A model generated the notes under the pieces. It was not told the DNA's origin. It worked only from the letters and a program-made list of their open reading frames with translations, and ran no database searches. Made by a program: the position numbers and the translations under genes. A DNA stretch of 64,000 nucleotides from an uncultured Erythrobacter sp. (GTDB lineage Bacteria; Pseudomonadota; Alphaproteobacteria; Sphingomonadales; Sphingomonadaceae), in contig NZ_OY284433.1 of the NCBI RefSeq assembly GCF_958304185.1, positions 124,001-188,000 on the forward strand. The letters are read 5' to 3'. Positions 20,903-40,161 of the stretch are shown in pieces (position 1 is the first letter of the stretch; every line of letters begins with the position of its first letter).

Positions 20903-22095
20903 CCGATCTTGAACCCATCATCCGCCTCGCCGCCAAGGGCGATGGCGTGACCGTCTCCGGCCGCCATATCGCGGGCGGCGTGACCGGCGACATGGTGGAC
21001 GGGGCTGGCACAATCACGCCGGGCCCGCACCACATCGCGCCCGCCTGCCGCCATTTCGGCGTGTGCGGCGGGTGCCTGTTGCAGCACGCGGACGACACGG
21101 CGCTCGCCGAGTTTGTCGCGGGCCGGGTCGTGAACGCCGCGCGCGGACAAGGTCTGGAACCGGCAGAGGTGCTCCCTGTCCACCTCTCCCCGCCGCAGAC
21201 GCGCCGCCGCGCGGGCCTCCATGGGCTGCGCACGGCCAAGGGCGCCGTTTTGGGCTACCGCGAGGGCGGATCGCACCGCGTGGTCGATCTCGCCGAATGC
21301 CCGGTGCTGCACCCATCGCTCACCGCACTCATCGTGCCGCTCCGGCGGTTTGTGGCGGCGCATGGGCCGAAGGGGATGGTCGGGATCGACCTGACCTTGG
21401 CGGATCAGGGCGTGGAAGCGTGCCTGACGCACTTCCCGATCGAAGGGCTCGGCCCGACCGAGGCGGCGCTTGATTTCGCACGTAATCAAGGCCTTGCGCG
21501 CCTTTCCTTCGATCAAGGCTATGGTCCCGAGACGGTGTGGGAGCCTGAACCGGCGACGGTGACTTTGTCCGGCGTGCCGGTGAGCCTCCCGCCCGGCGCC
21601 TTCCTTCAGGCGACCCATGATGCCGAGCGTGTGATGGCCACCGATGCTGCCGAATGGCTGGCGGGTTCGCGGGTTGTCGCTGACTTGTTCGCAGGGCTCG
21701 GCACCTTCGCCTTTGCGCTGCGAAGGGGAAGTAAGGTGCTGGCGGTTGAGGCGGAACGCGCCGCGCATCTCGCGTGCAAGGCGGCCGGGGCGATGAGTGG
21801 GGGCCGAGTGCTGGCGCTCCACCGCGATCTGTTCCGTTCCCCGCTCCAGCCTGAGGAGCTGAACCGCTTCGACGCTGTTTTGCTCGATCCGCCGCGCGCC
21901 GGCGCCCCTGCTCAGGTGGCGGAAATCGCGGCGAGCACGGTTTCGCGGGTGGTCTATGTCAGCTGCAATCCCTCAAGCTGGGCGCGCGACGCGGCGGTGC
22001 TGGCAGAGGCAGGGTTCCGACTTGCGAAGCTGCGCCCGGTTGGTCAATTCCGCTGGTCTACCCATGTCGAATTGGTAAGCTATTTCGAGCGTTAA
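20899..22095 (+). CDS. 23S rRNA (uracil-5-)-methyltransferase, RumA/RlmD type
   Basis: Class I SAM-dependent RNA m5U methyltransferase. Starting from the GTG at 20899 (GTGA overlap with nnrD) it has 398 residues. An N-terminal iron-sulfur site is suggested by CRHFGVCGGCLLQH and a later AECPVL cysteine. The catalytic part shows LPPGAFLQATHDAERVM, the SAM loop DLFAGLGTFAFALR, LLDPPRAGAP and YVSCNPSSWARDA with the nucleophilic Cys. The general family is secure, but which uridine (1939, 747 or tRNA 54) is methylated cannot be told. It ends convergently against the XrtA cluster, sharing a TTAA stop overlap. Confidence 0.88.
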   Translation: MTDLEPIIRLAAKGDGVTVSGRHIAGGVTGDMVDGAGTITPGPHHIAPACRHFGVCGGCLLQHADDTALAEFVAGRVVNAARGQGLEPAEVLPVHLSPPQTRRRAGLHGLRTAKGAVLGYREGGSHRVVDLAECPVLHPSLTALIVPLRRFVAAHGPKGMVGIDLTLADQGVEACLTHFPIEGLGPTEAALDFARNQGLARLSFDQGYGPETVWEPEPATVTLSGVPVSLPPGAFLQATHDAERVMATDAAEWLAGSRVVADLFAGLGTFAFALRRGSKVLAVEAERAAHLACKAAGAMSGGRVLALHRDLFRSPLQPEELNRFDAVLLDPPRAGAPAQVAEIAASTVSRVVYVSCNPSSWARDAAVLAEAGFRLAKLRPVGQFRWSTHVELVSYFER

Positions 22096-22883
22096 GCGCG
22101 CAAGCTTTCAAGGATTTGAGCTTCAAGCCACGCCCGATGCTCCGGCTCGACATAGGCGTGGCCTGCCCCTTCGCAACGGCAGATGCGTGGGTCGGCTTTG
22201 TCCCATGCGGCTTCGAACACTTGCGCGGTGCGGTCTGCCGTGGCGACGAGGATGCGCACCGATCCGGTGAAGCCTCCTAGCCCGGCCGCCATGTCCTGCG
22301 CCAAGCTTGACGGCGGCGGGGGCGGACGTAGGGCGTGGGCGATGCCCCGCGCCAGTTTGCCGAGGTTTACGCCGCCGCCCAGCAGCCGCATGACTTCGCG
22401 CGGGTTTTTCAGCTTTTCGAGATAGCGCGCGCGGATCGCGGCGGGGGGCGGGGTATCGTCTACCGCACCGTGGCTTTCGTCCTGCTCGATGGTCCAGGGG
22501 TTCGAAAGCACCAGCCCATCGCAGCCAGTACCGCCCGCCAGCATCAGCGCCGAGGCCGCATCGCAATTGCCGAAAGCCACCACCCGCGCGAGCTGCGGTG
22601 TCATCGCGCGAAAAGCATCAACGGCGCAGGCGATGTCCTTGGCGGAATGGCGGAACCCGCGGTTCTCGCCTTCGCTGTCGCCGATGCCGCGGCGGTCGAA
22701 CCGGAACACCGGGAAGCCAGCGAGGGCAATCCGCGCGGCCATCTCGGCTTGGCCGCCAAATGCGCCCGAGCGGATCTCGTTGCCGCCGCTGATAATCAGC
22801 AGCCCGGTCGTCCCCGGCGCCGTGTCGAGCGTGCCGGCGAGTGTCAGGCTGCCGCAACCGAAGGTGTGAGAAAGCCGCGTCAT
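22092..22883 (-). CDS. Exosortase A system-associated hydrolase 1 (alpha/beta hydrolase)
   Basis: Alpha/beta-hydrolase of the family that accompanies XrtA loci (TIGR03100 type). The true start is the ATG at 22883 (ATGA overlap with the preceding gene), giving 263 residues. Visible features: the GGNEIRSGAFG oxyanion strand, the FRFDRRGIGDSEG turn, and the nucleophile elbow FGNCDAAS with Cys107 where serine is usual. A possible acid lies in ATADRTAQ and the catalytic His in GAGHAYVEPEH. It is last in the leftward operon GNAT, ACP, hydrolase 2, hydrolase 1. The natural substrate is unknown; a thioesterase or acyl-transfer role on the ACP is my inference. Confidence 0.85.
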   Translation of the reverse strand: MTRLSHTFGCGSLTLAGTLDTAPGTTGLLIISGGNEIRSGAFGGQAEMAARIALAGFPVFRFDRRGIGDSEGENRGFRHSAKDIACAVDAFRAMTPQLARVVAFGNCDAASALMLAGGTGCDGLVLSNPWTIEQDESHGAVDDTPPPAAIRARYLEKLKNPREVMRLLGGGVNLGKLARGIAHALRPPPPPSSLAQDMAAGLGGFTGSVRILVATADRTAQVFEAAWDKADPRICRCEGAGHAYVEPEHRAWLEAQILESLRA

Positions 22884-23569
22884 AGCGCTGAATTCCCTAT
22901 AGTTTCGGCGATGATCGCGGCGAGACGATCGGCTTGCCCCGCGTCCTCGTCGGGCTCGGCGCGCAGCCATAGGCCGGGGCCGCCGACCATGCTTTGCGCA
23001 ATGTCGGACTGGCCCGGGCCGAGCGCCGGTTCGGCGGTTTCGAGTTTGCGGAACATCGCCGGACCGATGGGCCAGCCGCCTAGCACCAGACCGCTCTCGC
23101 GACCTTGCGCCAGAAGTCCTTCCGAGGTTTCGGCCATTCCGGCCTCGCGGGCGGAAATGGTGCGCGCGCGGATCATGCCTCGCAGCAGCTTGGGGCCGGT
23201 TTGTGCGGCATAGTGCCAGCCGGGCAGCATCGCCGGAGCGACCAGCGCGCCCGCCCGGATCGCCAACACATGGTTCGCGCCAAGCGCTTCTGCCGCTGCT
23301 GCCATACCTGCACGCCAGCCTGCAAGTGTTTGATGTTGGAGCGGAGCGAGGCTCTCGTTGCACCCCGGCAGATCGGGCAGCAGGCTGTCGATTCCCGCCG
23401 CATCCAGCCGCCGCATCACCTCGATCGTGAAGCGCCGCAGCTTGTTCGCCTCGTCAAACCATGCCGGGCAGACCAGCACGCGCACCGCGCGGCCGCGGTC
23501 GAAGGCGACCAGCAATTCCTCAGACGGCGGTCCGCCATCGGGTGCCGGATGGTTCCACGTGAAGATCAC
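22880..23569 (-). CDS. Exosortase A system-associated hydrolase 2-like protein, no usual nucleophile
   Basis: A 229-residue alpha/beta-hydrolase-like protein resembling the second hydrolase of XrtA loci (TIGR03101 type): LVCPAWFDEANKLRR, AAGIDSLLPDLPGCNES and LAIRAGALVAPAM follow the order of that family. The nucleophile elbow reads AIRAGAL, with no Ser, Cys or Asp at the expected point. As I recall, family members also have Arg-x-Gly here, so the loss is probably a family trait and not decay. The start is a GTG at 23569; the stop overlaps the hydrolase 1 ATG. Likely a scaffold, an unusual hydrolase or a binding partner of the ACP pathway. Confidence 0.7.
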   Translation of the reverse strand: MIFTWNHPAPDGGPPSEELLVAFDRGRAVRVLVCPAWFDEANKLRRFTIEVMRRLDAAGIDSLLPDLPGCNESLAPLQHQTLAGWRAGMAAAAEALGANHVLAIRAGALVAPAMLPGWHYAAQTGPKLLRGMIRARTISAREAGMAETSEGLLAQGRESGLVLGGWPIGPAMFRKLETAEPALGPGQSDIAQSMVGGPGLWLRAEPDEDAGQADRLAAIIAETIGNSAL

Positions 23570-23602: not shown

Positions 23603-23899
23603 CTAGCGGGGATCGAGCTTCGCGCGCGCAAACGCCAGCAGCCCGCCATAGGTTTCCAGCATTTCGCCATCGACGTCGTCATCCTCGATCACGATGCCGA
23701 GCCGGTCTTCCATCTCAGTCAGCAATCCGGCGACCGCCATCGAATCCAGCTCGGGCAGATGGCCGAACAACCCCGATTCCGGACCGAAGGCAGCGGCCTG
23801 CGCCGGGTCGAGCCCCAGCACGTCGGCGATCAATGCCTTGAGTTCGCTATCGAGCGCGGCCTCGCCTGCTGCGCTATCGATGTTCGGAATGGTGGTCAT
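23603..23899 (-). CDS. Acyl carrier protein of the XrtA locus
   Basis: A 98-residue acidic helical protein with the phosphopantetheine attachment site ELDSMAV (Ser53), inside the usual four-helix pattern (ALIADVLGLDP before it and LLTEMEDRLGIVIEDDDVD after it). It should carry an acyl or amino-acyl group as a thioester. It is not the fatty-acid AcpP: the sequence around Ser is ELDSM rather than DSLD, and it is encoded between the GNAT protein and hydrolase 2. The divergent AMP-forming ligase is the probable loading enzyme, by analogy with ligase/ACP pairs; that pairing is inference. Confidence 0.88.
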   Translation of the reverse strand: MTTIPNIDSAAGEAALDSELKALIADVLGLDPAQAAAFGPESGLFGHLPELDSMAVAGLLTEMEDRLGIVIEDDDVDGEMLETYGGLLAFARAKLDPR

Positions 23900-24998: not shown

Positions 24999-26546
24999 AT
25001 GCCGCACCAGCCCGATCCCGCCTTGCGCCCGCTTGACCACCTTGCCGAACTGGCGGGGGCGGCGGGCCGTGGCGCTAGGCCTGCGCTGGTGCTGCGCGAG
25101 GTCACGCTTAACCACAATCAGTTAAGACAGCGTGTCGCGCGGCTCGCCGGATGGCTGGCCGAGAGGGTGCCGGACAAGGGTGCGCGGGTGGCAAGCTGGG
25201 CGGCCAAGGGCGAAATCACCTGCCTGCTGCCGCTCGCTGCCGCGCGGGCAGGGCTGGTGCATGTGCCGATCAATCCGCTGCTGAAACGCGCGCAGGCCGC
25301 GCACATTCTTGCCGATAGCGGCGCGATGCTGGTGATCGGGACGGGCTCGCGGCTTGCCTCGCTGGAGCCGGGCGATTTGCCTGCGGGCTGCGCTGCGCTG
25401 GGTGAGGCTGAGGCGCTGGCGGCGGCTGAGGCTGCTGATCGAGAATTGGGGCCGTCCAAGGCCGATCCGGCGGAGCTGGCGGCGATCCTCTACACTTCGG
25501 GCTCGACCGGGCGGCCCAAGGGCGTGATGCTCAGCCATGCCAATATGTGGCTCGGCGCGGTGAGCGTGGCGCATTATCTTGGGTTGGCGGAGGACGACGT
25601 GACGCTGGCGGTGTTGCCGCTGTCGTTCGATTACGGGCAGAACCAGTTGCTCAGCACTTGGTATGCGGGCGGGTGTGTGGTGCCGCTCGATTTCCTGTTC
25701 CCCAAAGATGTGGCCAAGGCCTGCACCAAGCATGGCGTGACGACGCTGGCCGCTGTCCCACCCCTGTGGGTGCAACTGACCGAGATCGACTGGCCCGAGG
25801 ACGCGCGTGCGCCTTTGCGGCGGCTCACAAATAGCGGCGGGGCCTTGACCGTGGATCTGGTGCGATCCTTGCGCGGCCTGTTCCCGGAGGCGCGCGTGTT
25901 TCCGATGTACGGTCTGACCGAGGCGTTTCGTTCGACTTTCCTCGATCCGTCGCTCGTAGATTCTCATCCAACGTCAATGGGTAAAGCCATTCCCTTCGCA
26001 GAGATTCTCGTTATCAATGATGCCGGAGATGTCGCTGCCGATGACGAGGAGGGCGAATTGGTTCATTGCGGGCCGCTGGTCGCGCAAGGCTATTGGCAAG
26101 ACCCGGAGCGGACAGCGGAGCGCTTCAAGCCTGCGCCTGCCTCCTCGGCCTATGGCGGGATGGCGGTGTGGTCGGGTGACCGGGTGCGGCGTTCTGCCGA
26201 TGGCTTGCTATATTTCGCCGGACGCCGCGATGCGATGATCAAGAGCGCGGGCAACCGCATCAGCCCGCAGGAAATCGAGGAGGCGGCACTGGCCTCTGGC
26301 CTGGCCGCCGAGGCGGTCGCGTTGGGCGTGGCTCATCCGCGCCTCGGTCAGGCGGTGCATCTGGTGGTTCGCGGCGCCGCAGACGAAGCGGCGCGCGCGG
26401 AATTGCCAAAGCGGCTTCAGCGCGACCTGCCCAATTTCATGCAACCCCAGCACATCCATTGGCGCGAGACGATGCCGCTTAATCCCAATGGCAAGATCGA
26501 CCGCACCGCCTTGCAGGCCCAGCTCAATCAGGAATTTGCCCAATGA
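24999..26546 (+). CDS. Acyl-CoA/acyl-ACP ligase (AMP-forming), exosortase A-associated
   Basis: ANL-family ligase of the XrtA-associated type (TIGR03098). From the ATG at 24999 it has 515 residues; an ATG at 24987 would add four. Motifs: the P-loop AILYTSGSTGRPKGVMLSHA, FPMYGLTEAFRS, the WSGDRVRRSADGLLYFAGR hinge region with MIKSAGNRISPQEIEEAA, and the catalytic Lys in MPLNPNGKIDRTAL. It probably activates a carboxylate and loads it on the ACP encoded just across the divergent promoter. Its stop overlaps the start of the PLP decarboxylase (ATGA). Only about 20 bases separate the two divergent starts, so each promoter must overlap the neighbour's gene; TTGCAA at 24936 with GATACC 17 bases later is a weak candidate. 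Confidence 0.87.
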   Translation: MPHQPDPALRPLDHLAELAGAAGRGARPALVLREVTLNHNQLRQRVARLAGWLAERVPDKGARVASWAAKGEITCLLPLAAARAGLVHVPINPLLKRAQAAHILADSGAMLVIGTGSRLASLEPGDLPAGCAALGEAEALAAAEAADRELGPSKADPAELAAILYTSGSTGRPKGVMLSHANMWLGAVSVAHYLGLAEDDVTLAVLPLSFDYGQNQLLSTWYAGGCVVPLDFLFPKDVAKACTKHGVTTLAAVPPLWVQLTEIDWPEDARAPLRRLTNSGGALTVDLVRSLRGLFPEARVFPMYGLTEAFRSTFLDPSLVDSHPTSMGKAIPFAEILVINDAGDVAADDEEGELVHCGPLVAQGYWQDPERTAERFKPAPASSAYGGMAVWSGDRVRRSADGLLYFAGRRDAMIKSAGNRISPQEIEEAALASGLAAEAVALGVAHPRLGQAVHLVVRGAADEAARAELPKRLQRDLPNFMQPQHIHWRETMPLNPNGKIDRTALQAQLNQEFAQ

Positions 26547-27769
26547 AGCCCGTCGGTCCGATCCCTGCCGGTTACGAAACCATCGAAGGCGAACTCGCCA
26601 TCGGCGGCAAGCGCGCGAGCGAATTGGTGGCCGAGGCGGGGCGCACCCCGCTGTTCGTCTATTCGCGCACACATCTTGATGCCCGTGTGGCGGAGTTGCG
26701 TGCGGCGCTGCCCGCGCGGGTCGGGTTGAATTACGCAGTCAAGGCGAACCCGCACCTCGCAGTGATCGGCCATATGGCGCCGTTGGTCGATGGTTTCGAC
26801 ATTGCCTCCTCTGGCGAGCTGGCACTGTGCGTCGCGGTTGGGATTGATCCCCGCCGCATCAGCTTTGCTGGGCCGGGGAAGCGTGATGATGAGCTGGAGG
26901 CCGCGATTGCAGCAGGCGTGACGCTCAATTGCGAAAGCGAGGGGGAGGGCGCGCGGGCGATCGCCACCGGCCAGCGGCTTGGCAAGGCGCCGCGCATCGC
27001 GATCCGGGTGAACCCCTCATTCGAAATGAAGGGTTCGGGCATGAAAATGGGCGGCGGGGCCAAGCAATTCGGCATCGATGCCGAACGTGTGCCCGATCTC
27101 GCCCGACACCTGATCGGCGAAGGGGCCGAGTGGCGCGGCCTTCACATCTTCACCGGCAGCCAGACGCTCAGCGCAGACGCGATCATCGAAGCGCAGGGCA
27201 ATGTGCTCGAACTGGCCGCTGAACTTGCCGACGCGATTGGTCACGGCCTGACCAAGCTGAATATGGGCGGGGGCTTGGGGATTCCCTATTTCCCGGGCGA
27301 CACGCCGGTCGATCTGCCGCGCGTCGGTGCGGCTTTGGCTGAACATGTGGCCAATTTGCCGCCTGTCCTCGCGGATACCGAGCTGTGCATCGAACTCGGG
27401 CGCTATCTCGTTGGCGAGGCGGGCGTGTACTTGACCCGCATCATTGACCGCAAGGTTAGCCACGGGGTGACTTACCTTGTGACAGACGGCGGGCTGCATC
27501 ATCAGCTTGCCGCCTCAGGCAATTTCGGCACGGTGGTGCGGCGCAATTATCCGTCAGCCATTGCAACGCGTTACGGGGCTGAGGCGACCGAGGAAGTCAA
27601 CATCGTCGGTTGCTTGTGCACCCCGCTTGATCGGCTCGCCGACAATGCCGCGATGCCTCACGCCGATGTGGGCGATCTGGTCGCGGTCTTCTGCGCCGGG
27701 GCTTACGGGGCGACCGCCTCGCCCAGTGCTTTCCTCGGTCACGGCCCGGCAGCCGAACTGCTGGTCTGA
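26543..27769 (+). CDS. PLP-dependent decarboxylase, exosortase A-associated
   Basis: Fold-III pyridoxal-phosphate decarboxylase related to diaminopimelate and ornithine decarboxylases, of the XrtA-locus type (TIGR03099). The 408-residue protein has the PLP lysine in NYAVKANPHLAV (Lys67), the phosphate-binding NMGGGLGIPYF, the substrate-side Cys in VGCLCTPLDRLAD and the C-terminal FCAGAYGATASPSAF. It would release CO2 from a basic or dicarboxylic amino acid to give an amine. Coupled to the ligase by an ATGA overlap, it completes the ligase/ACP/decarboxylase set. A housekeeping LysA role cannot be excluded by sequence alone, but the context argues against it. Confidence 0.87.
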   Translation: MKPVGPIPAGYETIEGELAIGGKRASELVAEAGRTPLFVYSRTHLDARVAELRAALPARVGLNYAVKANPHLAVIGHMAPLVDGFDIASSGELALCVAVGIDPRRISFAGPGKRDDELEAAIAAGVTLNCESEGEGARAIATGQRLGKAPRIAIRVNPSFEMKGSGMKMGGGAKQFGIDAERVPDLARHLIGEGAEWRGLHIFTGSQTLSADAIIEAQGNVLELAAELADAIGHGLTKLNMGGGLGIPYFPGDTPVDLPRVGAALAEHVANLPPVLADTELCIELGRYLVGEAGVYLTRIIDRKVSHGVTYLVTDGGLHHQLAASGNFGTVVRRNYPSAIATRYGAEATEEVNIVGCLCTPLDRLADNAAMPHADVGDLVAVFCAGAYGATASPSAFLGHGPAAELLV

Positions 27770-27967: not shown

Positions 27968-28609
27968 ATGTTGTACCGTCTGCCCCCGATGCGTCTCGCA
28001 GCTCTTGGCGTCAGCGCTGCCTTGCTGGCAGCCTGCACCACTGGAGGCACGGAGCTGCCCTCGGCCAGCTATGGTGACGGCAGTGTCGCCCCGTCCGAAG
28101 AATACACCATCGGCCCGCTCGACGAGATCACTATTCACGTCTGGCGCAACCCCGAACTGAGCGCCGACAAGGTGCGCGTGCGCCCCGATGGGCGGCTGAC
28201 GATCCCGCTGGTGCAGGACATCCCGGCCGTGGGCAAGACCGCGACCCAGTTGCAGGATTACATCGCGGGCGAGCTGGCGAAGTATATCGAACAGCCGATT
28301 GTCTCGGTGATCGTCAACACGCCTGAAGGCAATTTCACCCAGCAGGTGCGTATCATCGGCGCGACCGGGCAGCCGGCGTCCCTGCCGTACCGTGCCAACA
28401 TGACCGTGCTTGACGCGATGATCGCGGTGGGCGGGCTCAATGAATTTGCAGCGGGCAACCGTGCCAAGCTAATCCGCCTCGATCACGAGACTGGCACCCA
28501 GGTCGAATACCGGCTGCGGCTGTCAGACCTGATCCGCAAGGGCGATTCGACGGCGAACGTGATGCTCAAGCCGGGTGACACGATCATCATCCCCGAGAGC
28601 CGGTTCTAA
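27968..28609 (+). CDS. Polysaccharide export lipoprotein (EpsE/Wza-like)
   Basis: Periplasmic/outer-membrane lipoprotein of the polysaccharide export (OPX/Wza) family used in XrtA loci (TIGR03027 type). The ATG at 27968 follows AAGGA by about 11 bases and gives 213 residues. A signal peptide ends in the lipobox LLAAC (Cys23). The poly-export domain covers about 40-120 (YTIGPLDEITIHVWRNPEL, RVRPDGRLTIPLV), and one SLBB-like domain follows (RIIGATGQP to GDTIIIPESRF). It is too short to span the outer membrane like Wza, as is usual for this branch. It starts the export module after a 198-bp gap that probably holds a promoter I could not pin down. Confidence 0.92.
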   Translation: MLYRLPPMRLAALGVSAALLAACTTGGTELPSASYGDGSVAPSEEYTIGPLDEITIHVWRNPELSADKVRVRPDGRLTIPLVQDIPAVGKTATQLQDYIAGELAKYIEQPIVSVIVNTPEGNFTQQVRIIGATGQPASLPYRANMTVLDAMIAVGGLNEFAAGNRAKLIRLDHETGTQVEYRLRLSDLIRKGDSTANVMLKPGDTIIIPESRF

Positions 28610-31151: not shown

Positions 31152-32824
31152 AGATGCGTGCCCGCCCATTCGCAGCCGCATGGCTGGCTGTCGGCCTCGT
31201 CGCCGCAGCCGCCTCTCCGGCTTATGCTCAGTCTCAGGGCCAGGGATCCGGCCAAGGACAAGGTCAAGGTCAGGGTGGCGACACCCCCGGCCAGCGCGGC
31301 AACCGCGTGGTCCAGCCCTATATCGAGGTTGGGCAGATCGTCTCGGCTGAGATCAGCCCCGGCAATGATGTCGTCACCTTCACGCAAGTTGCGGTGGGCG
31401 TGGACATCAACGTGCAGGGCCGCAACAGCGGCGCGGCGGTCTCGCTGCGTTATGAACGCAACATCGGCTACGGCGATGACAGCGTCGACACCAACACCAT
31501 CAGCGGGGTCGCACGCGGCACGCTGGCGCTGGTGCCGAACACGCTGAGCCTTGAAGCGGGCGCGCTTGCCTCGCGCAGCCGGATCGACGCGGGCGGCGGC
31601 ACCACCGCCAACCCACTGGCGCGTGAAGATGCCGAAAGCCGGATCTACAGTTTCTATGCAGGGCCAAGCCTCAACACCCGCGTCGGCGATGTCGATGTGC
31701 AGGGCGTGGCGCGGGTCGGGTACAACCGCTTCGAGGCCGATGATGCGCTGGTAACGCAAGCGGGCAACACCATCGATGTGTTCGATGACAGCGTGACCTA
31801 CCTAGGCCAGCTGCGCGCCGGGGTTAGTCCTGGCGAGGTTCTGCCGGTGGGTCTGGCGGTCACGGCAGGCGGTTTTCAGGAAGATATCGGCAATCTCGAT
31901 CAGCGGGTCCGCGATCTGTTCGTTCGCGGTGATGTGACCCTGCCGGTGTCGCGCACGCTCGCTCTCGTGGCGGGTGCGGGTTACGAGGACGTCGAGATTT
32001 CGAGCCGCGATGCGCTGCGCGATGCCAATGGCGTGCCGGTGATTGGCTCCGATGGCCGCTTTGTCACCGATCCCAATGCCCCGCGCCGGATCGCCTTCGA
32101 TGTCGACGGCCTGCTGTGGGATGTCGGCGTGCTGTGGCGGCCGTCCTCGCGCACCAGCCTTCAGGCTTCGGTCGGGCGGCGGTACGACTCCACCACCTAT
32201 TACGGAACCTTCACCTACGTCCCCAGCCAGCGCAGCGCCTTTGCCGTGTCGGCCTATGACGGGGTGAGCGGCGTCGGCGGCACGCTCAACAATGCGCTGG
32301 CGGGCCTTTCGAGCGACTTCGAAGCGATCCGCAACCCGGTAACGGGTGATTTCGGCGGGCTGGTGAGCGGCACTGAAGGTCAGGCGCTGATCGGCGGCGT
32401 CGGCTCGACCCGCTCGGCAGCGTTCCGTGGGCGCGGCGTGCGGGCTTCGTATCAGCGCACGATGGGCCGCACCGTGGCGGCACTCGGCGCGGGCTATGAC
32501 CGGCGCACCTTCATCGCTGCGGCCGGGACGGTGCTCGCACCGGTGAACGGGCTGACGGACGAAAGCTACTACGTGATCGGCGGTCTCACCCGCCAGATCG
32601 GGCAGGACGCGAACATAACCACCAATGCCTACGTCAACTGGTTCAACGCGGCCGGTAACAACAACGACGTGACGGCGATGGGCGCTTCGGCGGCCTACAA
32701 CCAGTCAATCACCCAGCGGCTTGTGGGCCGGGCAGCGATCGCGGTCGATTACTTCGACAGCGAATTCACCGCTCAGGACTTCGCCTTTGCCACCGCGCTG
32801 GTTGGCCTGCGCTACAATTTCTGA
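31148..32824 (+). CDS. PEP-CTERM/XrtA-associated outer-membrane beta-barrel protein
   Basis: A 558-residue predicted outer-membrane barrel (TIGR03016 type) that may form the exit pore for the polysaccharide. A signal peptide (about 1-27, ending ASPAYA) is followed by a Gln/Gly repeat (QGQGSGQGQGQGQGG) and then alternating strands with frequent Tyr, Val and Gly (VSLRYERNIGYGDDS, RVGYNRFEADDA, SYQRTMGRTVAALGAGYDRR). The last residue is Phe (LVGLRYNF), the C-terminal signature for barrel assembly. Automatic pipelines sometimes give this family unrelated names. The pore role is inferred from position between the kinase and the ATPase. Confidence 0.85.
   Translation: MKMRARPFAAAWLAVGLVAAAASPAYAQSQGQGSGQGQGQGQGGDTPGQRGNRVVQPYIEVGQIVSAEISPGNDVVTFTQVAVGVDINVQGRNSGAAVSLRYERNIGYGDDSVDTNTISGVARGTLALVPNTLSLEAGALASRSRIDAGGGTTANPLAREDAESRIYSFYAGPSLNTRVGDVDVQGVARVGYNRFEADDALVTQAGNTIDVFDDSVTYLGQLRAGVSPGEVLPVGLAVTAGGFQEDIGNLDQRVRDLFVRGDVTLPVSRTLALVAGAGYEDVEISSRDALRDANGVPVIGSDGRFVTDPNAPRRIAFDVDGLLWDVGVLWRPSSRTSLQASVGRRYDSTTYYGTFTYVPSQRSAFAVSAYDGVSGVGGTLNNALAGLSSDFEAIRNPVTGDFGGLVSGTEGQALIGGVGSTRSAAFRGRGVRASYQRTMGRTVAALGAGYDRRTFIAAAGTVLAPVNGLTDESYYVIGGLTRQIGQDANITTNAYVNWFNAAGNNNDVTAMGASAAYNQSITQRLVGRAAIAVDYFDSEFTAQDFAFATALVGLRYNF
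31235..31276 (+). repeat. Hexanucleotide repeat encoding a Gln-Gly tract
   Basis: Inside the outer-membrane barrel gene, just after the signal peptide, the codons alternate CAR and GGN (seven units of about six bases with one TCC interruption). The array codes for the Gln-Gly repeat. It is in frame, so gain or loss of one unit would change the length by two residues without a frameshift. Confidence 0.6.
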
Positions 32825-32839: not shown

Positions 32840-34012
32840 ATGTACGAACAATTCTACGGCTTCAGCGGGCGACCCTTCCAACTCACCCCCGACCCGCAGT
32901 TCTATTTCGAGAGCACCAGCCACAAGAAGGCGATGAGCTATCTTGGCTATGGCCTGGCGCAGGGTGAGGGCTTCATCGTCATCACCGGTGAGGTCGGCGC
33001 GGGCAAGTCGACGCTGGTCGCCCATCTGATGGAGCGGATTGATCCGGCGGCGCTGACGGTGGCGCAGGTCGTGACCTCCGCGCTCGATGGGGCCGAGGTG
33101 GTCCATGTGGTGGCGCAGGCGTTTGGTCTTCACGTCGAAGGGCAGGACAAGGCCGGGGCGCTGGGCGCGATCGAACGCTTCCTCCAGGACGAAGCGCGCG
33201 CTGGTCGCCGCTGCCTGCTGGTGGTCGACGAGTGCCAGAACCTTGAACTGACCGCGCTGGAAGAGCTGCGGATGCTTTCCAACTTCCAGCTCGGCGCGCA
33301 TCCTTTGCTGCAAAGCCTGCTGCTCGGCCAGCCCGAGTTCCGTCGCATGGTGGCGCATCATCCGGGGCTGGAACAGCTGCGCCAGCGGATCATCGCCTCA
33401 CACCACCTCGAAGCGCTGGATGCCGGCGAAGTCGAACATTACGTGCGCCACCGGCTCGGCCATGTCGGGTGGGACAATCGCCCGATGTTCGATGCTGGGC
33501 TGCTCGAAAGCCTCTATCGCCACACCGGCGGGATTCCGCGCCGGGTCAATCAGGTGATGAACCGTCTGTTGCTGCTGGGCGCTATTGAGGAATGCGATAC
33601 GCTAAGCCTCGCCATGCTCGACGATGTGATCGCCGAAATGGCGGAGGACCAGAACCGCGGCGCGCGCGGCGCGAGCGATCTGCGCTCCGCGCCTGCCGCT
33701 GCGCCTCAGCAAGCCGCTCCGGTCGCGCAGGGCAGCCTGCCTGCGACCGAAGTCGCTGCGCTGCTGGCCGAACGTGACGCCCGCACCGCAGAGCTTGAAG
33801 CCGCGATCAGCGAATTGCAGGCCGCCGGGATGGGCCAGGGTGCCGACGGCGAGGCGCTTTCGCCCGAGGAAGCCCACATCGCCGAGGCCCGCTTTGCCAC
33901 CGCGCTCGAGCGGATCGAGGCGCGGCTCGAGGAGCAGGAGCAATCCTTCCGCCATGTGCTCACCATGCTGATCGAGTGGCTTGAGGAAGACCCGTCGCGC
34001 GAGGCGGCGTAA
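32840..34012 (+). CDS. XrtA-associated AAA ATPase (ExeA/GspA-like)
   Basis: A 390-residue ATPase of the ExeA family in its XrtA-linked form (TIGR03015 type). It begins MYEQFYGFSGRPFQLTPDP, the typical ExeA N-terminus, then Walker A GEVGAGKST at residues 50-58, Walker B CLLVVDECQNL near 130, and an arginine-finger region with HHPGLEQLRQRI. The last 130 residues are Ala/Glu-rich with a coiled-coil look, and no peptidoglycan-binding domain is present. It probably energises secretion or assembly at the envelope. It lies 15 bases after the barrel gene and 4 bases before the deacetylase gene. Confidence 0.9.
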   Translation: MYEQFYGFSGRPFQLTPDPQFYFESTSHKKAMSYLGYGLAQGEGFIVITGEVGAGKSTLVAHLMERIDPAALTVAQVVTSALDGAEVVHVVAQAFGLHVEGQDKAGALGAIERFLQDEARAGRRCLLVVDECQNLELTALEELRMLSNFQLGAHPLLQSLLLGQPEFRRMVAHHPGLEQLRQRIIASHHLEALDAGEVEHYVRHRLGHVGWDNRPMFDAGLLESLYRHTGGIPRRVNQVMNRLLLLGAIEECDTLSLAMLDDVIAEMAEDQNRGARGASDLRSAPAAAPQQAAPVAQGSLPATEVAALLAERDARTAELEAAISELQAAGMGQGADGEALSPEEAHIAEARFATALERIEARLEEQEQSFRHVLTMLIEWLEEDPSREAA

Positions 34013-34016
34013 CGCC

Positions 34017-34979
34017 ATGAACGCCCCCTTTCAGCCTCTCTCTGAACGGCTTGCAACCGGCGCCAGTCTTGGCGCTGCGCAGGGCATCGTGAACGGCCTG
34101 TCGGTCGATGTCGAAGACTGGTTCCAGGTCGGCGCTTTCGAGAACGTCATCGCGCGCGGCGAGTGGGATAGCATCAAGACCCGCGTGGAGGACAATGTCT
34201 ACCGCGTGATCGATCTGTTCGCCGAAGCCGATGTCAGCGCGACGTTCTTCACGCTGGGCTGGGTGGCCAAGCGCCACCCTAACATGATCCGCCGCATCGC
34301 CGACGCAGGCCATGAACTCGCCAGCCACGGCTATGACCATGCGCGGGTGTTCACCATGGACCGCCCGGGCTTTGCCGAGGACATCCGCAAGGCGCGCACC
34401 ATCATTGAGGATTGTTCGGGCGTGGCGGTCACCGGCTACCGCGCGCCGAGCTTCTCGATCGACAGCCGCACCCCTTGGGCCTTCGCCGAACTGGCCGAAC
34501 AGGGTTACGCCTATTCCTCCAGTGTCGCCCCGGTGGCGCATGATCACTATGGCTGGCCCGAAGCGCCGCGCTTTGCCTTCAAGCCACTGCCATGGTCGCC
34601 GATGATCGAACTGCCGGTGACCACCGCGATGCTGGGCGGGCGGCGGGTGGCGGCTGGCGGGGGCGGGTTCTTCCGGGTGCTGCCTTACGCCTTCTCGCGC
34701 TGGGCGATCCGGCAGGTCAACCGCTCCGAAGGCCGCCCGGCGGTGTTCTATTTCCACCCGTGGGAGGTCGATCCCGATCAGCCGCGCGTCGATCATGCAC
34801 CGCTGCGGTCGCGCTTCCGGCACTATACGGGCCTCGGCAAGATGGCGGGCAAGCTGCGCGAATTGGTCCACGATTTTCGCTGGGGCCGGATGGATCTGGT
34901 CGCTCACCGCGAGGCAGCGCGGGCCGAGGATCTCGATCTGCCAAGCCCTGACGCAGCGACGGCGGATATCGCGGCATGA
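34017..34979 (+). CDS. XrtA-associated polysaccharide deacetylase (DUF3473)
   Basis: Metal-dependent NodB-type deacetylase with the C-terminal DUF3473 extension found in XrtA loci (TIGR03006 type). From the ATG at 34017 it has 320 residues. The motif NGLSVDVEDWFQV gives the catalytic Asp pair (31 and 34), and AGHELASHGYDHARV supplies the metal-binding His residues. TGYRAPSFSID and the C-terminal FYFHPWEVDPDQPR complete the set. It would deacetylate N-acetyl sugars of the exopolysaccharide. No signal peptide is evident, so it probably acts on intermediates on the cytoplasmic side. The stop overlaps the FemAB gene start. Confidence 0.92.
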   Translation: MNAPFQPLSERLATGASLGAAQGIVNGLSVDVEDWFQVGAFENVIARGEWDSIKTRVEDNVYRVIDLFAEADVSATFFTLGWVAKRHPNMIRRIADAGHELASHGYDHARVFTMDRPGFAEDIRKARTIIEDCSGVAVTGYRAPSFSIDSRTPWAFAELAEQGYAYSSSVAPVAHDHYGWPEAPRFAFKPLPWSPMIELPVTTAMLGGRRVAAGGGGFFRVLPYAFSRWAIRQVNRSEGRPAVFYFHPWEVDPDQPRVDHAPLRSRFRHYTGLGKMAGKLRELVHDFRWGRMDLVAHREAARAEDLDLPSPDAATADIAA

Positions 34980-36037
34980 ACGCCCCGGTGAAAGCCGGAA
35001 CGAGTGCGCGCGCCCTTGATTTCCGCGACGCACAGGATGTGCGCCGTATCGAAGGCTTCCTCGCCGAAGCGGGCGCGAGCCTGTTTCACCGCCCGGCATG
35101 GCTGCAAGCGGTCGAAACTGGCAGCGGCCAACGCGCGGCCGGACTGGTGGCGGAACGGATGGGCGTGGTAACGGGCTGTCTGCCGCTGACCGAAGTGCGC
35201 TCAGCTCTGTTCGGCAAGGCGCTGGTATCGAGCGGGTTCGGCGTAGGCGGCGGGATCATCGCAACAAGCGCCGAAGCTGCGGGCGTACTTGCGGCTGCGG
35301 CACAGGGTCACGCGATGCGCGGCGGCTTTGCCGGGATAGAACTGCGGGGCGGGGCTATCCCTGACGGCTGGGAAACGTGGTCAGATAAGCATTGCGGTTT
35401 CGAACGCGCGCTTGCGGTGGATGACGAAGCGGAACTGCTCGCCATTCCGCGCAAGGCCCGCGCTGAAGTGCGCAAGGGGCTGAGCTTTGGCCACCGTGTC
35501 ACGGTGGGGCGAAGTGCGTCTGACCTGACGGCGCATTACGCCTGCTACAGTGAAAGCGTGCGCAATCTCGGCACCCCGGTGTTTCCGAAGGGCCTGTTCG
35601 CAGCGATGCTGGAGGCGTTTCCGGACAGCAGCGACATCCTGACCGTGTGGCACGGCGATACCCCCCTCGCGAGCGTGCTCAGCTTCTACCACAATGGCGC
35701 TGTGCTGCCCTTCTGGGGCGGCGGCGCACTCGCTGCTCGGGCTGCCCGCGCCAACGAGGTGATGTATTACGAGTTGATGCTTCACGCCCGCCGGCAGGGG
35801 ATGACCCGGTTCGATTTCGGGCGCTCCAAGACGGGCAGCGGGCCGTTTGCCTTCAAGAAGAACTGGGGCTTTGCGCCTGATCCGCTGACCTACGGCGCAT
35901 GGACCGCGCCCGGTCAGCCACCCCGTAATATCGACCCGACCGATGCCAGTTATTCCCGCAAGATCGAGCTCTGGAAGAAACTGCCGCTCCCCATCGCCAA
36001 CACGCTAGGGCCGTGGATCGCGCGCGGGCTCGCGTGA
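34976..36037 (+). CDS. FemAB family protein, XrtA/PEP-CTERM-associated
   Basis: A 353-residue double-GNAT-fold protein (TIGR03019 type) related to the FemAB peptidyltransferases and mycosporin-like acyltransferases. Visible: LFHRPAWLQAVETGSG near the N-terminus, IPRKARAEVRKGLSFG, YACYSESVRNLGTPVFPKGLF, VLSFYHNGAVLPFWGGG, and the C-terminal FDFGRSKTGSGPFAFKKNWGF, highly typical of the family. It could add an amino-acyl or acyl group to an amino sugar freed by the neighbouring deacetylase; that link is inference. Coupled by ATGA to the deacetylase, with its stop overlapping the glycosyltransferase start. Confidence 0.9.
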   Translation: MNAPVKAGTSARALDFRDAQDVRRIEGFLAEAGASLFHRPAWLQAVETGSGQRAAGLVAERMGVVTGCLPLTEVRSALFGKALVSSGFGVGGGIIATSAEAAGVLAAAAQGHAMRGGFAGIELRGGAIPDGWETWSDKHCGFERALAVDDEAELLAIPRKARAEVRKGLSFGHRVTVGRSASDLTAHYACYSESVRNLGTPVFPKGLFAAMLEAFPDSSDILTVWHGDTPLASVLSFYHNGAVLPFWGGGALAARAARANEVMYYELMLHARRQGMTRFDFGRSKTGSGPFAFKKNWGFAPDPLTYGAWTAPGQPPRNIDPTDASYSRKIELWKKLPLPIANTLGPWIARGLA

Positions 36038-37257
36038 TGGGCGAGATCCTGTTTCTCGCCCACCGGGTGCCATTCCCGCCCGACCGGGGCGACCGTATCC
36101 GCTCGCATCACTTGCTGAAGGCGCTGGCGCGGCTCGCCCCGGTTCACGTCGGGTGCTTTGTCGAAGGGCCGGGCGAGAGCGAGGCGGCGCTCGCCGCCAT
36201 GACCGCCAGTTATTGCATCGCGCCGCGCACCAAGCCGCTACCGCTCGCCGGAGCAGAGGCGGTTCTGGCAGGCAAGCCCGTGAGCCTGACCGCATTCCAT
36301 TCGCGCAAGCTGGAACGCTGGGTGCGCGAGACCATCGCGGCGCGGGATATTGCGGCCATCCTCGTGTTCTCCGGCCAGATGGGGCAATATGTCCCGGCGG
36401 ATTTCCAGGGCCGCGTGGTGATCGACCTGTGCGATGTCGATAGCGCCAAGTTTGCAAGCTACGCCGCAGCGGGTGAGCGCGTCTGGCTCAACACGCGTGA
36501 GGCGCGGTTGCTGGCGGTGGAGGAAGAACGGCTTGGCGGCCGCGCCGATGCGACGCTTCTGATAACCGAGGCCGAGGCCGCGCTCTATCGCAGCCGATTG
36601 GCCGCGCCCGGCGAAGTAAATGTGCAGGTGATCGGCAACGGGATCGACGCCGCGTTCTTCGACCCTGCCGCCGTGCTCCCGCATCCGGTGATCGCAGACC
36701 TGCCGGGGCCGCATTTCGTCTTCACCGGCCAGATGGACTACCGCCCCAACGAACAGGCCGCGCTCTGGGTGATTGAGGCGCTGATGCCGAAACTGCGCGC
36801 GCGTTTCCCGCAGGCGATGTTCCATGTCGTGGGGCGCAACCCTACGGGCAAGCTCATGGCCCACCACGGCACCCCCGGCGTGCAGGTGTGGGGCGAGGTG
36901 CCCGACGTGCGACCCTTCATCGCTGCCGCCGATGCCGTGCTTGCCCCGCTGTTGATTGCGCGGGGGGTGCAGAACAAGGTGCTCGAGGCGATGGCGATGG
37001 CCAAGCCCGTGGTGCTGACGCCCGATGCGGCAACCGGCATTGCCGCCACCGACGGTGAGGATTGGCTCGTCTGTCCGCCCGATCCTGCCACCATATGCGC
37101 CCGCATCGCAGCGCTGCTGCGTGATCCCGAGGCTCCTGCCCGGATCGGCGCGGCAGCGCGGCGGTTCGTGCTCGACCATCACGGTTGGGACGCGATGCTG
37201 GCTCCGCTCGCCGGATTGATCGGCATGGCGGACGAGGGGCAGCGCCATGCCGCCTGA
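36037..37257 (+). CDS. XrtA/PEP-CTERM system glycosyltransferase
   Basis: GT-B-fold glycosyltransferase of family 4 type in its XrtA-linked form (TIGR03087). The start at 36037 (MGEILFLAHRVPFPPDRGD) shares one base with the preceding TGA and gives 406 residues. The C-terminal half has the donor-binding site: VIGNGIDAAFFDP, FTGQMDYRPNEQAALW, FHVVGRNPTG, ARGVQNKVLEAMAMAKPVV with the E-x7-E-like pattern, and TPDAATGI. It should transfer a sugar to a lipid-linked oligosaccharide on the cytoplasmic face. The last 11 bases overlap the exosortase gene. Confidence 0.9.
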   Translation: MGEILFLAHRVPFPPDRGDRIRSHHLLKALARLAPVHVGCFVEGPGESEAALAAMTASYCIAPRTKPLPLAGAEAVLAGKPVSLTAFHSRKLERWVRETIAARDIAAILVFSGQMGQYVPADFQGRVVIDLCDVDSAKFASYAAAGERVWLNTREARLLAVEEERLGGRADATLLITEAEAALYRSRLAAPGEVNVQVIGNGIDAAFFDPAAVLPHPVIADLPGPHFVFTGQMDYRPNEQAALWVIEALMPKLRARFPQAMFHVVGRNPTGKLMAHHGTPGVQVWGEVPDVRPFIAAADAVLAPLLIARGVQNKVLEAMAMAKPVVLTPDAATGIAATDGEDWLVCPPDPATICARIAALLRDPEAPARIGAAARRFVLDHHGWDAMLAPLAGLIGMADEGQRHAA

Positions 37258-38251
37258 GGCCGCCGCTTTGCCTTCACCGCCCCCATTGGAAAGCCTTCCG
37301 GTTGCATGGCGCGGCCCGCTTGGCGCGCTGGCATTAGCGGCGGCGGTGTTGATCGCGGTGACAGCGCAAAGCTGGGGCGCGATGCTGCACCAGTGGTGGA
37401 ATATCGACACCTATAATCACCTGCTGCTGGTTCCTTTCATCACCGCTTGGCTGGTGGGGCTGAAGGAGGAAGAACTCGCCGCGGTCACGCCGCAGCCATT
37501 CTGGCCGGGCCTTATCAGCGTCGCAGCGGCGCTGAGCTTGTGGTGGGTTGGCGAGACACGCGGCATCAACTTTATCGCGCAAGTGGGCGCGGTGGCCGCG
37601 TTGCAAGCGGCGGTTATCACTGTGCTCGGCCTGCGGGTCAGCCTGCTGCTCGCCCTGCCGCTGGCCTTTGCGAGCTTTCTCGTGCCCTTCGGCGACGAGA
37701 TCATCCCGCCGCTACAAACCGTGACCGCCGAGATCGCTATTGCGCTCACTCACCTGAGCGGCGTGCCCGCGCGCATTGAGGGCATCCACATCCACACCCC
37801 CGCCGGCCTGTTCATTGTCGCCGAGGCGTGCTCCGGGGTGAAATTCCTCGTCGCGATGGTGACGCTCGCCGTGCTGGTATGCTTCACCCGCTTTGAGCGT
37901 TGGAGCCGCCGCGCGGCCTTCCTCGCCGCCTGCATCATCGTCCCGATCCTTGCGAACGGCGTGCGCGCCTGGGCGACGATCTATGTCGCGCAGTTTATCG
38001 GGGCCGAGCAGGCCACTGGCTTCGACCATATCGTCTATGGCTGGATTTTCTTCGCCATCGTGCTCGCCGCTTTGCTCGGCGGAGCATGGCGCTTCTTCGA
38101 GCGGGAGCCTGAAGCCTATGGCTGGTCCACCGCCGCGATTGCCGACTGGTCGCTGATCGCCCGCGCCGAGACCTTGCGCTTTGCGCCCACCAGCGCCGGG
38201 CTCGCGATCATTGCCCTGGCGGCGATTGCCGCGCTGGCTGCGCTGCTCTAG
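37247..38251 (+). CDS. xrtA: Exosortase A
   Basis: Polytopic inner-membrane cysteine transpeptidase that recognises and processes C-terminal PEP-CTERM sorting signals. The 334-residue protein has about eight hydrophobic segments and the three catalytic landmarks: Cys195 in FIVAEACSGVKF, Arg240 in ILANGVRAWATIY and His261 in GFDHIVYGWIFF. The chain ends in a hydrophobic stretch right after this core, so the EpsI/DUF3485 domain that is often fused to XrtA is absent, and no separate EpsI gene follows. The start overlaps the glycosyltransferase by 11 bases. The flanking genes fix the subtype as A. Confidence 0.94.
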   Translation: MPPEAAALPSPPPLESLPVAWRGPLGALALAAAVLIAVTAQSWGAMLHQWWNIDTYNHLLLVPFITAWLVGLKEEELAAVTPQPFWPGLISVAAALSLWWVGETRGINFIAQVGAVAALQAAVITVLGLRVSLLLALPLAFASFLVPFGDEIIPPLQTVTAEIAIALTHLSGVPARIEGIHIHTPAGLFIVAEACSGVKFLVAMVTLAVLVCFTRFERWSRRAAFLAACIIVPILANGVRAWATIYVAQFIGAEQATGFDHIVYGWIFFAIVLAALLGGAWRFFEREPEAYGWSTAAIADWSLIARAETLRFAPTSAGLAIIALAAIAALAALL

Positions 38252-38262
38252 GCGGCAAGACC

Positions 38263-40161
38263 ATGTGCGGGATTGCCGGGATCTTCCATGCCGAGACGCC
38301 CAAGCCGGTTGACCCGTCGCGGGTTGAGCGGATGTGCGACGCGCTGGCCCATCGCGGGCCTGATGGGGCAGGGGTGTGGACCGATCAGGGCGTGGGCCTC
38401 GGCCATCGCCGCCTGTCGATTATCGACCTCGCCGGTTCTCCGCAGCCGATGCACACGCCCGATGGTCGCGCGGTGATCGTCTTCAACGGCGAGATCTACA
38501 ATTTCCGCGAATTGCGCCGCGAGCTGGAGCAGGCCGGGTTCATGTTCCGAACTTCGGGCGATACCGAGGTGATCCTTGCTGCGTGGCAGCGCTGGGGGGT
38601 GGACTGCCTCAAACGGCTCGACGGGATGTTCGCCTTCGCGCTGTATGACCGCGACAAGCGCCAGCTGTTCCTCGCGCGTGACCGGTTCGGGGTGAAACCG
38701 CTATTCTATGCGCCGCTGTCGGATGGCAGCATCGCCTTTGCTTCGGAGCTGAAGGGGCTGCTCGCGCATCCGCAGCTGCGCCGCCGGATCAATCCGCAGG
38801 CGATCGAGGCTTACATGACGTGGGGCTATGTCCCCGATACGCATTCAATTCTGGCCGGGGTGGAGAAGCTCCCAGCTGGGCATTTCTGGCTGCTGGAACA
38901 GGGCCGCGCGCCTGGCCGTCCGCAGCGGTGGTGGGACATTGACTTCACGCAGCGAGAGCGTGGGAGCGAGGCCGATCTCTCCGCACAGCTCGTCCACCTG
39001 CTGCGCGAAGGGGTGCGTTCGCGCATGGTGTCGGACGTGCCGCTGGGCGCGTTTCTCTCGGGCGGGGTGGATAGCTCCGGCGTGGTTGCGCTGATGAGCG
39101 AGGCTAGCAGCCAGCCGGTGCAGACCTGCTCAATTGGCTTCGATGTCGCCGCCTATGACGAGACCAGCTATGCCCGGCAGGTCGCCGCCAAGTTCGGCGC
39201 CGATCATGCCGAGCGGATTGTTGCCACCGACGATTTCAGCGCCATTGACCAACTTGCCGCGATGTTCGACGAGCCCTTCGCTGATGCCTCGGCTCTGCCG
39301 ACATGGCGCGTCTGCCAGCTGGCGCGCGAGCGGGTGACGGTGGCGCTTTCGGGCGATGGCGCGGACGAAGCGTTTGGCGGATACCGCAGGCAGGTGTTCC
39401 ACCACCACGAGGAACGCGCACGCTCCATCCTGCCCGCTAGCCTGCGCGCGCCCTTGTTTGGGACATTGGGCCGGGCATGGCCCAAAGCCGACTGGGCCCC
39501 GCGCCCCCTGCGCGCCAAGGCAACCCTGCTGGCCCTCGCCGAGAGCGGTGAGGAAGGTTACGCGCGCGGGCTTTCCGTTACGCTGCCGGATGCGCGCCGT
39601 GCGCTCTATTCGGACAGCTTCACCGCCAGCCTCGAAGGCTTCCGCGGCGAGGATGAGCTGATCGCCCTGATGCGCGCCGCGCCGGGCCGCTCAGGCCTCG
39701 ACCGCGCGCAATATGCTGATCTGATGTTCTGGATGCCGGGCGATATCCTCACCAAGGTCGACCGCACCAGCATGGCGGTGAGCCTCGAAGCGCGCGAGCC
39801 GCTGCTGGATCACCGCTTGGTGGAGTTTGCCGCGAGGCTGCCAGAAGGGATGCGGGTCAAGGGTAGCACTGGCAAATACCTGCTCAAGAAGTCGCTCGAA
39901 CGCTATCTGCCGCATGATATTCTCTACCGCCCCAAGCAGGGCTTCGTGACCCCGATTGCAGAATGGCTGCGCGGGCCGCTCGCGGGCGCGGCGCGGGGGA
40001 TCGGGGCGAGCGGCGGTCTGGCGCAGACCGGGTTCTTCGACCCGCAGGCGATTGGTGCGATGGCCGAGGCACATATCGCGGGACGCGCGGACCATTCGCG
40101 CACGCTGTGGCAATTGCTGATGCTGGAGAAGTCGCTGACGCAGTTGGGGGTGAGCAGTTAG
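38263..40161 (+). CDS. XrtA/PEP-CTERM system amidotransferase (asparagine synthase-like)
   Basis: Class II glutamine amidotransferase of the asparagine-synthase fold, in its XrtA-locus version (TIGR03108 type). The 632-residue protein has the nucleophile Cys2 in MCGIAGIF, RHRGPDGAGVW-like and NGEIYNFRELR glutaminase motifs, and the synthetase PP-loop GAFLSGGVDSSGVVAL. The C-terminal KVDRTSMAVSLEAREPLLDHR stretch (in two shorter parts) is typical. It probably amidates a uronic or amino-acid group of the exopolysaccharide or its precursor rather than making free asparagine; that is inference from context. It is the last recognisable gene of the locus. Confidence 0.9.
   Translation: MCGIAGIFHAETPKPVDPSRVERMCDALAHRGPDGAGVWTDQGVGLGHRRLSIIDLAGSPQPMHTPDGRAVIVFNGEIYNFRELRRELEQAGFMFRTSGDTEVILAAWQRWGVDCLKRLDGMFAFALYDRDKRQLFLARDRFGVKPLFYAPLSDGSIAFASELKGLLAHPQLRRRINPQAIEAYMTWGYVPDTHSILAGVEKLPAGHFWLLEQGRAPGRPQRWWDIDFTQRERGSEADLSAQLVHLLREGVRSRMVSDVPLGAFLSGGVDSSGVVALMSEASSQPVQTCSIGFDVAAYDETSYARQVAAKFGADHAERIVATDDFSAIDQLAAMFDEPFADASALPTWRVCQLARERVTVALSGDGADEAFGGYRRQVFHHHEERARSILPASLRAPLFGTLGRAWPKADWAPRPLRAKATLLALAESGEEGYARGLSVTLPDARRALYSDSFTASLEGFRGEDELIALMRAAPGRSGLDRAQYADLMFWMPGDILTKVDRTSMAVSLEAREPLLDHRLVEFAARLPEGMRVKGSTGKYLLKKSLERYLPHDILYRPKQGFVTPIAEWLRGPLAGAARGIGASGGLAQTGFFDPQAIGAMAEAHIAGRADHSRTLWQLLMLEKSLTQLGVSS

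Follow-up and report, generated by a model that had tools for sequence, protein, structure and literature searches.

The stretch of DNA analysed here (the window; 64,000 nucleotides, C1:124001-188000 of a 3.29-Mb Erythrobacter genome, G000) carries an exosortase A (XrtA)/PEP-CTERM exopolysaccharide locus at window positions 22092-40161 (C1:146,092-164,161). A preliminary description, made from the sequence alone, had reported 16 adjoining XrtA-family genes, 4 leftward facing 12 rightward, the latter ending with exosortase A and an amidotransferase, and the open reading frames (ORFs) lie as reported. Its identification of the locus agrees with NCBIfam: most genes passed XrtA-specific models, with 11 of the 14 named models above their curated cut-offs (TIGR03100, 03098, 03099, 03027, 03007, 03015, 03006, 03019, 03087, 03109, and 03108) and the other three (TIGR03101, TIGR03018, and TIGR03016) matched below them. 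The acyl carrier protein (ACP) and the GNAT-type acyltransferase had no XrtA-specific NCBIfam match and passed Pfam models instead. Paired scores in the list are bits over the curated cut-off of the model; starts marked as estimated were reassigned from model and homolog boundaries.

22092 to ~22883, minus strand: hyd1, alpha/beta hydrolase, TIGR03100 (202.8/168.45 bits; start estimated)
22880 to 23569, minus strand: hyd2, diverged hydrolase-like protein, TIGR03101 (28.8/202.75 bits)
23603 to 23899, minus strand: ACP of 98 amino acids, PF00550 (28.3/20.8 bits), pantetheine-site motif ELDSM
23991 to ~24977, minus strand: GNAT/FemAB-like acyltransferase, PF13480 (56.3/22 bits; no NCBIfam match; start estimated)
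24999 to 26546, plus strand: AMP-forming ligase, TIGR03098 (627.1/592.35 bits)
26543 to 27769, plus strand: pyridoxal phosphate (PLP) decarboxylase, BtrK-like, TIGR03099 (580.8/478.45 bits)
~27968 to 28609, plus strand: Wza-type export lipoprotein, TIGR03027 (212.5/180 bits; ORF opens at 27902; start estimated)
28625 to 30145, plus strand: chain-length determinant protein, TIGR03007 (289/278.85 bits)
30162 to 31151, plus strand: tyrosine autokinase, TIGR03018-like (184.8/230.65 bits)
31148 to 32824, plus strand: outer-membrane protein, TIGR03016-like (45.2/90.85 bits)
32840 to 34012, plus strand: XrtA-associated ATPase, TIGR03015 (338.8/324.5 bits)
~34017 to 34979, plus strand: polysaccharide deacetylase, TIGR03006 (415.1/276.2 bits; start estimated)
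34976 to 36037, plus strand: FemAB-family protein, TIGR03019 (316.5/260.35 bits)
~36040 to 37257, plus strand: glycosyltransferase, TIGR03087 (381.9/316.65 bits; ORF opens at 36013; start estimated)
37247 to 38251, plus strand: exosortase A of 334 amino acids, no fused EpsI domain, TIGR03109 (302.4/208 bits)
38263 to 40161, plus strand: asparagine-synthase-like amidotransferase, TIGR03108 (954.3/816.9 bits)

The exosortase triad that the preliminary description had named can be seen in the translated protein (C195, R240, H261), which is the sole PF09721 match of the genome. Of the two leftmost proteins, hyd1 has a Cys within its nucleophile-elbow motif G-x-C-D-[AG], and hyd2 has an Arg at the would-be nucleophile position of G-x-S-x-G (a motif placement of our own); both residues recur in eight of eight loci. 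By its residues, hyd2 is probably not catalytic and looks like a pseudoenzyme retained beside hyd1. The D-S site of the ACP is kept in all 18 loci with an ACP match. The divergent GNAT and ligase genes have estimated starts ~20 bp apart, so that their promoters must overlap genes or the starts are wrong.

Housekeeping genes bound the block on both sides, again as first described, and the methyltransferase flank served as a marker of the same site in other genomes.

20806 to 22095, plus strand: RlmD-like 23S rRNA methyltransferase (RlmD at the top of the NCBIfam matches, 190.4 and 138.8 bits, both below cut-off)
40427 to 41542, minus strand: zapE
41539 to 42036, minus strand: hotdog-fold protein (TIGR00369 below cut-off)
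42069 to 42848, minus strand: sdhB

Named genomes were scanned and yielded 271 relatives; the best 80 were kept, 23 of these were dropped for short flanks, and 57 were compared. The best named relative of the exosortase, from Erythrobacter ramosus, is 93% identical over residues 1-316. The 11-gene order from the decarboxylase to the amidotransferase is identical in 57 of 57, and zapE, the hotdog-fold protein, and sdhB are all three present in each. An arrangement so constant is not due to chance, and by gene order the XrtA locus as such is an ordinary core feature of its clade, found in an Erythrobacter/Porphyrobacter-type genome. The same constancy led us to reject a recently acquired, inert block.

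Within one GTDB family (199 sampled genomes, 129 of them XrtA+, that is, with an exosortase above cut-off, and 70 without), the locus separates into two modules, with the ACP-ligase-decarboxylase trio detachable from the exosortase part. Table rows and genus labels for this sample were copied by hand; the lengths of the lists match the tallies (129, 79, 147, 165, 127, and 163). The hydrolase hyd1 is above cut-off in 121 of the 129 XrtA+ genomes compared to 6 of the 70 without, and the decarboxylase in 124 compared to 41. Of the twenty decarboxylase-centered regions compared, 8 come from XrtA+ genomes; the genomes of 9 lack any exosortase match, and those of the other 3 have a weak one. Among the seven XrtA+ regions reaching far enough (L153 is too short), hyd1, hyd2, and ACP occur in all and GNAT in six; the 12 regions from genomes that are not XrtA+ hold the ligase (12), ACP (11), GNAT (2), and hyd1 with hyd2 (1, in G172). 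In G062 the trio stands alone between rlmD and zapE, within ~25 bases on each side as measured from match ends, and G058 has the same trio-only site plus a weak match to an ATPase remnant (residues 324-382, 41% identity, E 1.5e-6). In G172 (L154, G172:C1:337700-357600), the front of wza is fused onto the end of the amidotransferase gene (~7883-8794), and all between, XrtA included, is deleted. From this junction and the remnant, loss of the exosortase part is plain in G172 and likely in G058, with the trio staying in place. The gene-order comparison that the preliminary description had proposed gives one order from decarboxylase to amidotransferase in the 57 named relatives and two genomes with only the trio. 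That description had said that occurrence of the genes in genomes with no exosortase would count against it, and this is seen in part: the decarboxylase passes its model in 41 of the 70 genomes without XrtA above cut-off, and the trio is found at the same site without the exosortase part.

The best solved relative of the decarboxylase in a search of PDB sequences is BtrK (218.6 bits, compared to 136 for the best annotated diaminopimelate [DAP] decarboxylase), and it carries C-T-P-x-D in 20 of 20 loci. BtrK and 6knh likewise have C-T-P; 2p3e and 3vab have the C-E-x-x-D typical of DAP decarboxylases. Entry 6knh bears the deposition name of a probable DAP decarboxylase; we take it as SbnH on the strength of the neighboring entry 6knk, which is so named. 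Both score and motif led us to reject DAP decarboxylase as the identity of the TIGR03099 protein. Among solved structures, the ligase is nearest to amino-acid adenylation domains and to aminoacyl-carrier ligases. BtrK is described as a glutamyl-[BtrI ACP] decarboxylase that converts BtrI-S-glutamate to the gamma-aminobutyrate thioester, and citryl-conjugated amino acids are given as the substrates of SbnH and AcsE (PMC7857480, in part). In such a reaction the free alpha-carboxylate must go, so loading by the ligase would have to be through the side-chain carboxylate. The trio thus resembles butirosin BtrI/BtrK in its decarboxylase, in the C-T-P-x-D motif, and in the adjoining ACP and amino-acid-type ligase, and is unlike it in having an AMP-forming ligase of the A-domain type where butirosin has BtrJ, an ATP-grasp enzyme.

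A substrate for the exosortase was sought with the PEP-CTERM model TIGR02595, which gave one match above its cut-off in G000 (16.8 bits against 16) and another below it (E 2). PEPxxWA-type clients (NF035944) gave none above cut-off in G000. The preliminary description had named no client. The candidate client lies beside ruvB, 1.44 Mb from the locus.

G000:C1:1608533-1609978, minus strand: candidate client of 481 amino acids

It has a signal-like N terminus (judged by eye), a Ser/Gly-rich middle, and a C terminus of VPAPP, hydrophobic helix, and RRK (VPAPPMTILFGLAAAAILGRRKFLG); as a whole it matched nothing in NCBIfam up to E 10. Homologs of its first 120 residues occur in 79 of the 199 family genomes, 76 of which have a genome-level tail match at E ≤ 1e-5. 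In 30 of 30 fetched homologs ruvB adjoins the client, and aconitase, which lies next to it in G000, is visible in 12 of these short stretches. The VPAPP tail closes the frame in 27 of the 30 (26 with a stop; the L104 stretch ends just past the tail), and the remaining 3 run off their stretches in genomes that carry tail matches (E 2e-22 to 4e-19). The composition row for L089, which came from an unrelated ORF, was left out of this comparison.

A tail profile (A1) was built from 23 of the 27 tails, leaving out L096, L104, L107, and L111. At E ≤ 1e-5 it matched 113 of 129 XrtA+ genomes compared to 5 of 70 without XrtA, or 90 of 106 compared to 5 of 70 once the 23 profile-source genomes are removed. 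To lessen the effect of ancestry, we compared 11 genera of mixed XrtA state (by the hand-copied labels), in which 15 of 16 XrtA+ members and 4 of 13 members without XrtA above cut-off have the tail; these 4 belong to the five exceptions (G070, G117, G135, G193, and G172). In G070, an assembly of 200 contigs, the match to the N-terminal part of the client contains a stop; G117 and G135 are 87% and 77% complete; and G193 has only a partial XrtA match. All five have hyd1 above cut-off, and so probably have, or recently had, an XrtA locus. G172 is, by its in-place deletion, a natural exosortase-loss mutant with the client still in its genome. Co-occurrence therefore makes the ruvB-linked protein a well-supported candidate for the one convincing XrtA client of G000, and we infer that XrtA processes it.

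Other parts of the exosortase system lie elsewhere in the genome. PF02397 revealed two priming sugar transferases, one of them in a second locus ~300 kb from the block, where the neighbors were compared with NCBIfam models.

C1:461.6-467.9 kb: PrsR (665.6/502.6 bits)
C1:461.6-467.9 kb: PrsK (461.7/300 bits)
C1:461.6-467.9 kb: XrtA-type sugar transferase TIGR03013 (EpsB_2; 500.4/393.35 bits)

A tetratricopeptide repeat (TPR) protein adjoining PrsR resembles PrsT but scores below the cut-off of that model (83.4/312.2 bits, in a PrsT search confined to this region). EpsI (PF11984) gave no match in G000 or in the three other genomes of the genus that were searched and was present in 6 of the 15 genomes searched. 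The phrase "nearly complete" in the preliminary description is therefore apt for the block alone and not for the system, of which PrsK, PrsR, and TIGR03013 lie in the second locus and EpsI was not found in the genome. Exosortase frames above 500 amino acids, the size of an EpsI fusion, occur in 3 of the 57 named relatives (lengths counted from the match start) and make up 111 of the 129 XrtA open frames listed for the wider family (a hand count). The second priming sugar transferase, at G000:C1:1295690-1296253 (L169), has nucleotidyltransferase-like and sugar dehydratase-like neighbors by eye, perhaps a separate surface polysaccharide locus.

A search for -24/-12 boxes for sigma-54, with at most two mismatches, gave 5 matches at the client locus, 27 at the XrtA locus, and 11 at the Prs locus, compared to 6.0, 33.4, and 12.5 expected. 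Upstream of 24 client genes the top sigma-54 match was no better than in base-shuffled sequence, except in L096 and L114 (3-4% of shuffles). Alignment of 26 upstream regions showed a conserved element, [TC][GA]GTTAA followed by [GA]TTG, ~100-125 bp before the client start and resembling TGGTTAAC-N3-ATTGC (e.g., L170:7072-7087, minus strand). A looser pattern, TGG[CT] with TGC after 8-9 bases, matched 20 of the 26, 19 of them at the conserved element and L096 elsewhere. Sigma-54 sites have the spacing GG-N10-GC. Because that of the element is GG-N11-GC, we did not adopt a sigma-54 identity for it. Many copies include ATGGTTAA, the CtrA half-site TTAACCAT in reverse. Neither the window nor the Prs locus holds the element beyond chance; in G000 an exact copy occurs only at the client, and one mismatch gives 6 sites, compared to 14 for a reversed-pattern control.

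We consider it fairly probable that these genes form a two-module XrtA system, in which exopolysaccharide export is coupled to XrtA and one main mucin-like client, and the aminoacyl-ACP kit probably decorates the polymer. The first module (Wza, chain-length protein, tyrosine kinase, outer-membrane protein, ATPase, deacetylase, FemAB, glycosyltransferase, XrtA, amidotransferase, and hydrolases) would export and edit the exopolysaccharide and carry XrtA. XrtA would most likely cut the C-terminal tail of the ruvB-linked, Ser/Gly-rich secreted protein, and the cut end would probably be passed to polysaccharide or to a lipid carrier, giving a mucin-like surface layer of protein and polysaccharide in which the client may be glycosylated. 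In the second module (ligase, ACP, and decarboxylase), the ligase would most likely join the side-chain carboxylate of a dicarboxylic amino acid, such as glutamate or aspartate, to the ACP, where the decarboxylase would then act on it as BtrK does on BtrI. The PF13480 transferases and the deacetylase suggest that the acceptor of the acyl group is on the polysaccharide, and GNAT/FemAB-type transferases could put the aminoacyl group onto sugars freed by the deacetylase. A bolder version for the whole family, with XrtA as a near one-client enzyme that welds a ruvB-linked Ser/Gly/Thr-rich protein to an exopolysaccharide decorated with omega-amino-acyl groups by a BtrK-type kit, seems to us unlikely. 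It would give a surface glycopolymer with a protein backbone of its own, built by chemistry of a kind known until now from an antibiotic pathway.

Several results weigh against the two-module system. Fisher's test for the co-occurrence of tail and XrtA (9e-31) ignores shared ancestry. At 1e-5, A1 has no match in 16 of the 129 XrtA+ genomes, some of them rich in ordinary PEP-CTERM matches (36 in G005, 33 in G052). The sigma-54 box expected for PrsR-controlled client genes occurs at the three loci no more often than by chance. Within the genus, G000, G041, G180, and G121 have 1, 3, 2, and 0 TIGR02595 matches (counted at E ≤ 0.1 with no more than 40 candidates scored in each genome) and 1, 2, 3, and 1 A1 matches at E ≤ 0.1 (37 of 46 candidates scored in G000), so that "one client" is true of G000 and "few" of the group. 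This XrtA might be an ordinary multi-client enzyme, with further, more diverged PEP-CTERM clients among which the ruvB-linked protein is merely the most conserved. Short tails are hard to detect, two genomes of the genus have the 2 and 3 matches just given, and XrtA+ genomes range from 0 to 40 TIGR02595 matches, with at least 10 in 19 of 129. Against such an enzyme stand the single TIGR02595 match above cut-off, the single A1 match, and the lack of an NF035944 match above cut-off in G000, and the low numbers in the family: the median is 2 in XrtA+ genomes, 104 of which have four or fewer (14 of them none), compared to 32 in the 37 genomes whose exosortase match is only a weaker one, many of which are probably of another exosortase type, and 0 in the 33 with no match. 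On balance we find the multi-client enzyme rather unlikely.

The client may also be a membrane-anchored protein that XrtA leaves uncut, co-occurring with it through a shared surface program. Its VPAPP departs from the PEP motif and scores under the cut-off of PF07589 (14.1/20.7 bits), and its presence in G172 means that it can outlive XrtA. However, the tail sits at the extreme C terminus with the motif-helix-basic-cluster layout of known clients, and with 10 invariant columns across 23 tails it is more conserved than the N-terminal part (32-57% identity outside the genus), and an uncut anchor appears quite improbable. More serious, and a real possibility even if we doubt it, is that the trio belongs to an unrelated conserved pathway that merely neighbors the exosortase operon. 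Its persistence between rlmD and zapE in G062 and G058, and the decarboxylase in 41 of 70 genomes without XrtA above cut-off, mean that its product need not reach this polysaccharide. Set against this, the decarboxylase is above cut-off in nearly all XrtA+ genomes, opens the conserved gene order, ahead of wza, in all 57 named relatives, and, like the ligase, is named exosortase A system-associated by NCBIfam.

The XrtA locus itself is a known system; it becomes a variant through its candidate client, its small number of clients, the EpsI not found, and the detachable BtrK-like kit. Like the EpsH system (excerpts of PMC1569441, and NCBIfam), it has the XrtA triad, exopolysaccharide export genes, PrsK/PrsR, and TIGR03013, and the client shares the signal-like N terminus, Ser-rich middle, and C-terminal motif-helix-basic tail of EpsH-system clients. 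Unlike that system, it has one convincing client at a fixed ruvB site, VPAPP in place of PEP, no EpsI in the genome search, and parts spread over two loci. The excerpts of Haft et al. 2006 (PMC1569441) give 1-65 PEP-CTERM matches per genome (median 8), at least 4 in 16 of 19 genomes, and describe client sets as fast-evolving. In Aquincola floc formation (PepA/PrsT; excerpts of PMC9850573), a single PEP-CTERM protein similarly matters for holding exopolymer to cells; there pepA is RpoN-dependent and upstream of prsT, whereas in G000 the client adjoins ruvB and the search for a sigma-54 box gave none above chance. A mutant table in PMC11340318, in a sphingomonad context, names an exosortase-associated amidotransferase, and PMC12188702, as far as its excerpt goes, is work on cyanoexosortase B. 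Searches of open-licence PubMed Central returned nothing on exosortase with Erythrobacter or on PEP-CTERM with Novosphingobium, and in the same collection, which leaves subscription literature aside, no prior report of a ruvB-linked client or a BtrK link was found.

Exosortase function is hard to test where the clients of each genome are many and evolve fast. A group that can be cultured, in which one orthologous client predominates, and with only one exosortase in the present genome, would offer a clean enzyme-substrate pair. The aminoacyl-ACP reading likewise assigns a concrete reaction, open to testing, to the ligase and decarboxylase named "exosortase-associated", and shows that these database names claim too close a tie to the exosortase.

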